DNA from: Fimbriimonas ginsengisoli Gsoil 348
GTDB taxonomy: Bacteria; Armatimonadota; Fimbriimonadia; Fimbriimonadales; Fimbriimonadaceae
Reading direction: 5' to 3'
Length of the DNA: 64,000 bases
Assembly (NCBI GenBank): GCA_945881865.1
Contig: CAMCVK010000003.1
Location: 1-64,000, forward strand
In this document: piece after piece, positions 47,387-54,319 of the stretch
Layout of the letters: the number at the start of each line of letters is the position of its first letter
Numbering within the stretch: position 1 is the stretch's first letter
Made by a program: the position numbers and the translations under genes
The notes under the pieces: generated by a model
Database searches by the model: none
What the model was told of the DNA's origin: nothing
What the model saw: the letters and a program-made list of their open reading frames with translations, nothing else

Positions 47387-47401
47387 AGCTAAAAGCTTCA
47401 G
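47383..47401. terminator. bidirectional hairpin terminator between PEP-CTERM gene and hisG
   Basis: CTGAAGCT (47383-47390) pairs with AGCTTCAG (47394-47401) around an AAA loop. It overlaps both convergent stop codons. The T run is short on both strands, so efficiency is uncertain. Confidence 0.65.
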
Positions 47402-48267
47402 TAAATGACCTTATTGAGCGGGTACTCGACCAAACCGGTCGCGCCCGCTCTTTTCAATCGCGGGATCAAGTCACGCACGTCTTTTTCGCTCAGGATGACC
47501 TCGGCGGCAATCCAGCGGTCGTCGGCCAATGGGCTGAGCGTTGGGTTCTGCAACGCCGGAAGTAGGCTCAAAATTTCGGCCTGTTGTTCGCGCGGCATAT
47601 TCATCTTTAGCCCCACCAGCTTCGCGGCGTTCATCGCCCCGGTGAGGAGAATCTCCAGCGATTGAATCCGCTCCCGCTTCCAGCCGTCCACCCAGGCGGC
47701 GGGCGACGCGATGAATCGCGTCGTCGAAGTAAGCAACCGGTCGATGATGACCAAGTTGTGGGCGCGCAGCGAATTGCCCGTTTCGGTGTTCACGACGATC
47801 GCATCGACTAGCTCGGGCACTTTCACCTCATCGGCACCCCACGAGAACTCGATGTTTGCGTGGACGTTGTTGTCGGCGAAGTATCGCGTGGCGAGGCGGA
47901 CGTATTCGGTGGCGATCCGTTTTCCGGCAAGTTGCTGGACCGACTCGATGCCGCTGTCCTTGTGAACCGCAAGCACGATCTGGATCGGATTGTTCGTGAG
48001 CTTGCTGTACCGAAGCTCGCAGACCTCTTGCACGTTCGCACCGGCGTCCTCAATCCAATCCTTGCCGGTTAACCCGGCATCGATAACGCCGTTCTGCACG
48101 TAGAGCGGAATCTCTTGCGGACGCAACAAGATCGGCTCCAGCGTCTCGTCGTCCACGATCGGCTGATAGGACCGCGACGACACCTTGAACGAGTAACCCG
48201 CCCGTTCGAAGAGGCTGAATGTCGCTTCCTGGAGGCTGCCCTTCGGAAGCCCGAGCTTGAGTTTCAT
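47398..48267 (-). CDS. hisG: ATP phosphoribosyltransferase (long form)
   Basis: 289 residues, first enzyme of histidine synthesis. 'LKLGLPKGSLQEATFSLFERAGY' and 'DAGLTGKDWIEDAGANVQEVCEL' begin the catalytic domain, then 'GKRIATEYVRLATRYFADN' and 'GADEVKVPELVDAIVVNTETGNSLRAHNL' (PRPP-binding region). A C-terminal regulatory ACT-like domain (about 215-289) marks the long, HisZ-independent form. Other his genes are not adjacent. Divergent from ribBA with 55 bp between. Confidence 0.95.
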   Translation of the reverse strand: MKLKLGLPKGSLQEATFSLFERAGYSFKVSSRSYQPIVDDETLEPILLRPQEIPLYVQNGVIDAGLTGKDWIEDAGANVQEVCELRYSKLTNNPIQIVLAVHKDSGIESVQQLAGKRIATEYVRLATRYFADNNVHANIEFSWGADEVKVPELVDAIVVNTETGNSLRAHNLVIIDRLLTSTTRFIASPAAWVDGWKRERIQSLEILLTGAMNAAKLVGLKMNMPREQQAEILSLLPALQNPTLSPLADDRWIAAEVILSEKDVRDLIPRLKRAGATGLVEYPLNKVIY

Positions 48268-48322: not shown

Positions 48323-49522
48323 ATGACCTTTTCCACCATCCCGGAAGCGCTGGAAGATCTTCGGCGCGGAAAGATGATCGTCGTTGTGGATGACCCGGAC
48401 CGCGAGAACGAGGGCGATCTGGTTTGTGCCGCCGAAGCTTGCACGCCCGAGATCATGAATTTCATGATCCGCTACGGGCGCGGCGTGCCGTTCATTCCGA
48501 CTTCGGCCGAGCGGCTGGCCGAACTCGGCGTGCCGATGATGACGAAGCAGAACACCGCGCGCCACGGAACCGCGATGGCCGAGACGGTGGACGCCCTGCA
48601 CGGTGCGACGACCGGCGTTTCCGCGCAGGATCGAGCCCGGACGGTTGCCGTATTTGTCGATCCCGAGGCGAAGCCGACCGACCTCGGGCGGCCAGGCCAC
48701 ATCATTCCCCTCCGCGCCGAGAAAGGCGGGGTGCTGGTTCGGGCGGGACACACGGAAGCCATCGTGGACCTTTGTATGCTCGCCGGATTCCAGCCAACCG
48801 GCGTGGGTTGCGAGATTCTGAACGAGGACGGCACGATGATGCGCCTCGATGGCTTGACCGAATTTTGCGCGGAGCACGACCTCCGGCTAATCACCATTGC
48901 CGACCTCATCGCCTATCGCCGCGTACACGAAAGATTGGTAGAACTCGCCGCCGGACCGATTGACTTCCCTACCAAGTTCGGCCACTTCCAGCTCTACTGC
49001 TATGAGACGAAGGTGGAAAAAGACCCGTACATCGCCATCGTGAAGGGCGACGTTTGCACCGACGAGCCGGTTTTGGTGCGGACCCACAGCAGCTGCCTCA
49101 CCGGCGATCTCCTCGGCTCGCTTCGGTGCGACTGCGGTGACCAACTCGAAATGGCCCTTCGGATGATTGAAGAAGAGGGCCGGGGCGTGGTGCTCTATAT
49201 CTCGCAGGAGGGGCGCGGGATCGGCATCGTGAACAAGCTTCGGGCGTACGAGTTGCAGGATCGCGGCATGGACACCGTCGAGGCGAACCTGGCGCTTGGC
49301 TTCCAGGCCGATCTGCGCGACTACGGCCTCGGGGCACAGGTGCTGGCCGACTTGGGACTTCGTCGGCTTCGGCTGATGACGAACAACCCGAAGAAGGTGA
49401 GCGCACTGCAAGGCTACGGGCTCGAGATCGTGGACCACGTGCCGATCGTTGCAAAGCCGAACCCCGAACGGGAGCGATACATGGCGACGAAGCGCGACAA
49501 GATGGACCACATGTTGCCTTGA
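48323..49522 (+). CDS. ribBA: bifunctional 3,4-dihydroxy-2-butanone-4-phosphate synthase / GTP cyclohydrolase II
   Basis: 399 residues making both precursors of riboflavin. The RibB half (1-200) has '[21 protein letters not shown]', '[17 protein letters not shown]' and '[11 protein letters not shown]'. The RibA half (205-399) has the zinc-binding cysteines in '[18 protein letters not shown]', the '[17 protein letters not shown]' loop, '[11 protein letters not shown]' and '[13 protein letters not shown]'. Both active sites are intact. The downstream gene overlaps its stop as TTGA. Confidence 0.96.
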
Positions 49523-52909: not shown

Positions 52910-52929
52910 AACCGCTTTTCTCCGCTATA

Positions 52930-53003
52930 CTCAACTACTGTTGAGATAAGGCTCAACGGCGTAAGCCGGCGGATCCTCGACCGAGGAGGGTGCCGGTTTT
53001 TTT
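52930..53003 (+). promoter_or_regulatory. attenuator-like leader with terminator upstream of purA
   Basis: Between map and purA lies a terminator: CCGGC (52966-52970) and GCCGG (52992-52996) with an inner CCTC/GAGG stem and seven T (52997-53003). Ahead of it, GTTGAG (52940-52945) can pair with CTCAAC on either side (52930-52935 or 52952-52957). CGGC-GTAA-GCCG (52957-52968) makes a GNRA-capped stem that shares bases with the terminator stem. The pairings are mutually exclusive, as in an attenuator. A TATACT box at 52926-52931 could be a promoter, in which case the first CTCAAC would not be transcribed. Confidence 0.6.
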
Positions 53004-53029
53004 GTGCGTCCGATTCGAAGGAGAAATAG

Positions 53030-54319
53030 ATGCCAACACTCGTAATTGTCGGTGCCCAGTGGGGCGACGAAGCCAAGGGCAAAATGATCGACGTCCTGGG
53101 CGGCCAGGCGAACCTGGTCGTTCGCTATGCCGGCGGGAACAACGCGGGCCACACCGTCATCACCGGCGGAAAAACCTATAAGTTCCAGCTGATTCCGGCG
53201 GGAATCCTGCACCCCAACACCGTGGCCGTCATCGGAAGTGGGATGGTGGTTTGCCCCGAGGGCCTGCTCGATGAACTGGAGCGCACCCAAAGCCAGAAGT
53301 CCGACCTCGGCACGCTCAAGATTTCCAGCGCTGCCCACGTGGTTTTCCCTTATCACCGGATGCTCGACGCGCTGGAAGAAGAAGCGCGTGGCGAAAACAA
53401 AATCGGCACGACCTCGCGCGGAATCGGGCCGGCCTACCAAGACAAGGTCGCCCGCACCGGCATCCGAATGGGCGAGTTCGTCGAACCGGCGATCTTCGAG
53501 CGACGCTTTGCAGAGGTTTTGGCTTACAAGAACCGGTTGCTGGAGATGTTTGGCTCGAAGCCATTGGAATTCGCGCCGACCTTTGAGCGGTACCTCAAGT
53601 ACGCGGAGCGGCTGAAGCCGTTCGTGGAAGACACCGAGATTTTGGCGCAGGATGCGGTCGCGGCCGGCCACCGAGTGTTGTTTGAAGGCGCCCAGGGAAC
53701 CTACCTGGACCTCGACAGCGGGACATATCCGTACGTGACTTCTTCGCACCCCGTCGCGGGCGGCGCGTGCCTCGGTACCGGCGTCGGACCGCGCGATATC
53801 AACAACGTTCTTGGCGTTTGCAAGGCCTACACCACCCGGGTCGGTTCTGGTCCGTTCCCGACCGAACTCGACGACGAGATTGGCGCGCGGATTCGCGAGC
53901 AGGGTCAAGAGTACGGCACGGTGACGGGCCGTGGCCGCCGATGCGGCTGGCTCGATCTGGTTGCGCTGCGACATTCCGCACGGCTCAACAGCCTGAGCGG
54001 CTTGGTCGTGACGCGGCTGGACGTACTGCAGGGCATCGGCCGCCTGAAGGTGGCGACCGGGTACCGCGTCGACGGCAATCCGGTTCGCACGCTCCCGGCA
54101 AACGTTTGGGACCTGGCAAAAGTGCAGGCCGAATACGAGGAATTGGAAGGCTGGGACGAAGACCTTCGGCCCTGCCGAAAGTTCGAAGACCTGCCAAGTT
54201 CGGTGCGGCACTACCTCGCGTTCATCGAGGAGTACACCAAGACCCCGGTCGCCATTGTCAGCATTGGGCCGGACCGCGACGAGACGATCATCGTTCGCCC
54301 AGACCTGATTTGGGGCTGA
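53030..54319 (+). CDS. purA: adenylosuccinate synthetase
   Basis: 429 residues, forming adenylosuccinate from IMP, aspartate and GTP in AMP synthesis. Blocks: 'VGAQWGDEAKGKMIDVL' (usually GDEGKGK; the Gly is Ala here, the catalytic Asp is kept), 'YAGGNNAGHTVI' with the catalytic His, 'GTTSRGIGPAYQDK', 'EGAQGTYLDLDSGTYPYVTSSHP', 'TRVGSGPFPTEL', 'TGRGRRCGWLDL' and 'VRHYLAFIEEYTKTPVAIVSIGPDRDET'. Length is normal. A strong ribosome site (GAAGGAG) precedes the ATG. Expression is probably influenced by the leader terminator. Confidence 0.95.
   Translation: MPTLVIVGAQWGDEAKGKMIDVLGGQANLVVRYAGGNNAGHTVITGGKTYKFQLIPAGILHPNTVAVIGSGMVVCPEGLLDELERTQSQKSDLGTLKISSAAHVVFPYHRMLDALEEEARGENKIGTTSRGIGPAYQDKVARTGIRMGEFVEPAIFERRFAEVLAYKNRLLEMFGSKPLEFAPTFERYLKYAERLKPFVEDTEILAQDAVAAGHRVLFEGAQGTYLDLDSGTYPYVTSSHPVAGGACLGTGVGPRDINNVLGVCKAYTTRVGSGPFPTELDDEIGARIREQGQEYGTVTGRGRRCGWLDLVALRHSARLNSLSGLVVTRLDVLQGIGRLKVATGYRVDGNPVRTLPANVWDLAKVQAEYEELEGWDEDLRPCRKFEDLPSSVRHYLAFIEEYTKTPVAIVSIGPDRDETIIVRPDLIWG

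Follow-up and report, generated by a model that had tools for sequence, protein, structure and literature searches.

A structured purA leader in Fimbriimonadaceae is probably an ON-type riboswitch-like attenuator

Organization of the region upstream of purA was analyzed in a 64,000-nt stretch of contig CAMCVK010000003.1 (genome G000), hereafter the window; all coordinates are positions in this stretch on its forward strand. An ORF at 53030-54319 (+), with its ATG at 53030, encodes 429 aa and carries the signature GAQWGDEAKGK, from which we take it to be purA (adenylosuccinate synthetase), the gene that the leader would control. A Shine-Dalgarno sequence, AAGGAGA, lies at about 53018-53024 (+). 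Upstream of purA, a GC-rich hairpin is followed by a U-tract (52966-53003), as expected of an intrinsic terminator or attenuator. The predicted terminator spans 52963-53003 (+); its base pairs CCGGC (52966-52970) with GCCGG (52992-52996), its upper stem is UCCUC/GAGGA, and a tract of seven T residues (52997-53003) directly follows GCCGG. Folding energy of the map-purA gap was lower than that of dinucleotide shuffles (z = -2.98; 2 of 200 shuffles were as low). Two other ORFs in the window, at 48323-49522 (+) and 47398-48267 (-), were named by eye as RibBA-like (dihydroxybutanone-phosphate synthase/GTP cyclohydrolase II) and HisG-like (ATP phosphoribosyltransferase), respectively.

A structured leader domain of ~44 nt occupies 52940-52981 (+), with the intrinsic terminator directly 3' and sharing the 3' strands of its three stems. 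The outer stem, P1, pairs GUUGAG (52940-52945, +) with CUCGAC (52976-52981, +), the latter strand being assigned by pairing conservation and covariation. P1 encloses an internal loop with AUAAG (52946-52950, +; consensus ANAAG) on its 5' side, where four of five columns are invariant in 44 sequences, and GGAUC (52971-52975, +; consensus GRAUC) on its 3' side, invariant except for one G/A position. P2 consists of GC (52951-52952, +) paired with GC (52969-52970, +), invariant in all 44 sequences. It is followed by a bulge, UCAA (52953-52956, +), with the consensus NNNA in the alignments and a nearly invariant A, and by the P3 hairpin CGGC-GUAA-GCCG (52957-52968, +), in which GUAA is a GNRA tetraloop; the size and sequence of this loop vary among relatives. 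The long-range GUUGAG/CUCGAC helix around a near-invariant internal loop, which the initial annotation had missed, gives the leader its aptamer look.

That annotation had instead proposed that GTTGAG pairs with either of two CTCAAC copies. Both sequences are present, and the downstream copy (52952-52957, +) is a plausible local competitor, the partner of GUUGAG in the putative OFF state; as a conserved alternative partner it gives way to CTCGAC at 52976-52981. The upstream copy (52930-52935, +) overlaps the predicted -10 promoter element TATACT (52926-52931, +), which was assigned from its sequence and its conserved spacing in relatives. Because of this overlap the upstream copy is a poor RNA partner and is probably not transcribed, and we rejected it. 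No recognizable -35 element was seen upstream of the -10 box. In 58 of 60 motif leaders, the GTTGAG equivalent is preceded by a -10-like hexamer at a distance of 3-8 nt (mostly 5-8), and this constrained spacing places the predicted transcription start at 52938-52940 (+). The purA RNA should thus begin with GUUGAG at or near its 5' end. A start after 52945, which the initial annotation had named as evidence against its switch-like reading, is not what the promoter predicts.

Distribution of the leader was analyzed by comparative genomics. purA homologues were identified in 113 of 121 genomes searched. A covariance model (R1) built from relatives' leaders gave one convincing match in G000 (61.5 bits; the next scored 22.5) and matched 63 of 85 Fimbriimonadaceae genomes, once per genome. 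When 291 Armatimonadota genomes were searched, 63 had exactly one match at E ≤ 0.001, all of them Fimbriimonadaceae, and no R1 match at that threshold was found in the other Armatimonadota. At every inspected motif locus purA was directly downstream. Association with purA only, at one copy per genome, is the consistent tie to functionally related genes expected of a riboswitch. Since map precedes purA in just 2 of 61 motif loci, the neighboring gene does not explain the motif, and the possibility that it is a simple map terminator, raised in the initial annotation as a ground for abandoning the switch, was rejected. A pattern scan over 84,980 species genomes returned 58 loci and identified the motif-bearing family as Fimbriimonadaceae. 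Those scoring at least 39 bits were all in Fimbriimonadaceae-type records or in relatives already seen with purA; the remainder scored at most 29 bits, and those whose context was read sit inside unrelated reading frames. A distribution beyond Fimbriimonadaceae was rejected on these grounds.

Mapped onto a purA tree, the motif occurs throughout the family and needs at least six state changes, which suggests that it is ancestral in Fimbriimonadaceae and was lost several times. No hidden copies were found in motif-less relatives with search filters off. A hairpin immediately before purA is also present in several related genera that lack the motif. In motif-less relatives (L031, L015, L016, L034, and L036), there is often a different strong hairpin directly following a TATAAT-like -10 element and immediately preceding purA, such as GGGTTGGGACC-loop-GGTCCCAACCC-TTTT in L031; these may be unrelated attenuators or 5' stabilizers. 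Two Fimbriimonadaceae genomes of 1.5 Mb (G047 and G065) had neither a purA match nor the motif, which suggests that purine synthesis is reduced in them or that they have a dependent lifestyle.

The sequence upstream of purA was read in about 70 of the 113 purA-bearing genomes. The common motif is [-10 box]-5 to 8 nt-GUUGAGAUAAGGCUCAACGGC-variable-GCCGGCGGAUCCUCGAC-variable-GCCGGC-U-tract, with an almost invariant core, GAGANAAGGC ... GCGRATCCTC. An alignment of 44 leaders, built from sequence only, had 17 invariant columns, which fall into the groups G.GA.AAGGC and GCG.ATCCTC. P1, P2 (GC/GC), and P3 (CGGC/GCCG) were together paired in 92.7% of cells, and both sides had changed in five of the pairs; when partners were slid by one to three columns as a control, 25-50% of cells were paired. 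P1 alone was paired in 90.5% of cells and P3 in 92.3%, with double changes in three of the four P3 pairs. The local GUUGAG/CUCAAC hairpin was paired in 74-76% of cells in relatives. An alternative 5' hairpin, P1' (GUUG/CGGC), was paired in 91.6% of cells and had two double-changed pairs.

Because shuffles ignore relatedness, we evaluated these counts against our own simulation of independent columns on the purA tree (58 tips). For P1, P was about 0.001-0.005 and the double-change score was reached in 0.1% of runs. For P3, P ranged from 0.002 to about 0.05, marginal on one measure (0.052), with the score reached in 0.2% of runs. P1-P3 together gave P of 0-0.001, and no run (0%) reached their double-change score. 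P1' gave P of 0.02-0.06 with the score reached in 6% of runs, and the slid-partner controls were not significant. The GUUGAG/CUCAAC hairpin showed no covariation signal on this tree (32% of runs reached the observed score) and was rejected as a conserved structure. The invariant P2 is compatible with pairing; like the near-invariant core, it is silent on covariation because it does not vary. By these comparisons P1 and P3 covary beyond the tree-aware null, the outcome for which the initial annotation had suggested aligning relatives' leaders, and the leader has the conserved, structured 5' character with covarying stems expected of a riboswitch. Leaders of L023, L025, and L026 diverge as a subtype: their core contains GCGAATCC, their outer P1 is weak, and their terminator hairpin is almost perfect; sensing is possibly altered or lost there.

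Growing window transcripts were folded as prefixes, yielding thermodynamic predictions that exclude tertiary contacts and kinetics. The local GUUGAG/CUCAAC hairpin and P3 appeared first, and P1 was a minor competitor near 41-44 nt (local hairpin versus P1 at 44 nt, 0.79 versus 0.20). With the local hairpin favored in the window, P1 therefore needs help. The terminator base formed at 56-60 nt and replaced P3, in line with the competition between a GNRA-capped CGGC/GCCG stem and the terminator that had been described initially. Since the terminator replaces P3, termination is expected of the RNA on its own and should be prevented when P1-P3 are held in place. The local hairpin is a plausible competing fold in the window's genome, specific to the window.

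Among 60 leaders, the P1 core was present in the unconstrained domain fold of 49. A strict U-tracted terminator was found in 44, with weaker tracts in others (about a quarter lacked a strict U-tract). A few leaders (L055, L057, L170, L043, and L048) had no terminator, and their downstream partner sequence contains the Shine-Dalgarno sequence, as in the pairings CCUGC/GCAGG (L055 and L057) and CCUCG/CGAGG (L170). In every one of the 60, the domain's 3' strand has two predicted pairings, one within the domain (ON) and one with a downstream terminator or Shine-Dalgarno element (OFF). This sharing bears out, at the level of prediction, the earlier description of the purA leader as switch-like, its stems excluding one another, and it is the relation between aptamer domain and expression platform expected of a riboswitch. 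As both platforms pit the domain against an OFF element, the arrangement points to an ON switch.

We conclude that the purA leader is probably an ON-type riboswitch-like attenuator not described before. Its conservation, its association with purA, the covariation of P1 and P3, and the overlap with the terminator are apparent at the level of sequence. Riboswitch-like working is well supported by the anatomy, while we infer ligand binding, the ligand, the ON direction, and the start site. In the proposed mechanism, RNA polymerase would start at about 52938-52940 and make the ~44-nt domain first, in the order P1 (GUUGAG/CUCGAC), the 5 x 5 internal loop (ANAAG/GRAUC), P2 (GC/GC), the NNNA bulge, and P3 (CGGC/GCCG). 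The domain would then be stabilized, most likely by a small purine-branch-point metabolite in the internal loop; so held, the 3' strands of P1-P3 would be withheld from the terminator and purA would be transcribed (ON). Without ligand, the terminator at 52963-53003 would take the 3' strands, GUUGAG would fold into the local hairpin with CUCAAC, and transcription would stop. In a few relatives, the same strand would mask the ribosome-binding site instead of forming a terminator. A more specific and tentative proposal is that the leader represents a new class of riboswitch, restricted to Fimbriimonadaceae, which would sense a purine nucleotide of the IMP/AMP/GMP branch point (e.g., IMP or GTP) and activate purA. 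An IMP- or GTP-type ligand is our guess because the regulated gene is purA, whose product uses both as substrates, and because of the ON logic.

The conserved loop could also be a protein site. An RNA-binding protein, possibly PurA or a family-confined regulator, might recognize the internal loop and stabilize or block the domain, and the single gene and narrow taxonomic range fit a leader read by one protein. We consider such a protein-dependent attenuator unlikely: PurA autoregulation would normally be repressive, yet a stabilized domain should prevent termination, and no conserved upstream neighbor suggests a regulator (map, for example, adjoins only 2 of 61 loci). It is rather improbable that the leader is an OFF switch, in which a ligand would stabilize P1' (GUUG...CGGC) or GUUGAG/CUCAAC and free the 3' strand for the terminator, as in feedback by AMP, ADP, or ATP. 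The pairing of P1', with its two double-changed pairs and weak tree-aware support, and the stability of the local hairpin in window folds are consistent with this direction, but P1 covariation would go unexplained, as would the near-invariance of GCGRATCCTC while the terminator's other arm changes.

An invariant internal loop and a covarying P1 are not needed for termination, and the element lies downstream of its own predicted promoter, with map upstream in so few motif loci (2 of 61). These features make it very unlikely that we are dealing with a non-sensing terminator or 5' stability hairpin, such as a terminator of upstream map, even though a U-tracted stem is present and several motif-less related genera keep a hairpin in the same place. 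Transcription attenuation, as the initial annotation held, is the likely mode; of the means it listed, ribosome pausing is unlikely, since the aptamer lies at the predicted 5' end of the RNA and neither a start codon nor a leader ORF is conserved. In some members TTG AGA TAA at the 5' end could be taken for an ORF of two codons, but members with GTCGAG or GTTGGG lack it, and the aligned leaders contain no conserved start codon and no run of control codons. We give translation-coupled attenuation, by leader peptide or ribosome pausing, hardly any credence.

The ON-type riboswitch-like reading was next compared with known RNAs. Against the 71-nt window leader, the best Rfam 15 hits were unrelated models at 10-14.5 bits, far below cut-offs, and no Rfam model matched any of 13 motif loci (the window leader and 12 relatives) at E ≤ 1. 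The leader thus matches neither the ZTP, purine, and guanidine classes, as noted initially, nor any other Rfam class. A vague likeness to the NAD+-I riboswitch (nadA motif, RF03013) was presumed for some members, where GCGAAUC lies 3' in an internal loop. This candidate was rejected: its model matched nothing in G000 at a threshold as loose as E 10 and nothing over cut-off in five Fimbriimonadaceae genomes. Full-text literature searches, in which subscription literature was thinly covered, found no work on a purA riboswitch or a Fimbriimonas riboswitch, and purA was not mentioned in the genome-scale ncRNA papers searched. Neither purA nor inosine ligands come up in the reviews searched on riboswitch discovery and ligands, one of which reports that ATP riboswitch claims turned out to be false (PMC10043782, PMC9971707). 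The structured purA leader is real and previously unlisted in Rfam and in the literature searched.

With its sole link to adenylosuccinate synthetase, this compact orphan RNA offers a short list of testable ligands, and its minimal 44-nt size makes probing easy. It would also reveal how IMP is directed toward AMP in a poorly studied phylum. Guanine/adenine (RF00167), ZTP, guanidine, and PRPP riboswitches control purine-related genes; unlike these, the purA leader is one stem with an internal loop rather than a three-way junction, and it has no Rfam match. Direct overlap of aptamer and terminator is known from ON-type metabolite riboswitches such as the pbuE adenine, fluoride, and PRPP classes. 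The purA leader differs from them in its conserved sequence and structure and in its restriction, so far, to purA. It is like them in having a small 5' aptamer-like domain whose 3' strand is the 5' arm of the terminator, and in using terminator or Shine-Dalgarno-masking platforms in different members.
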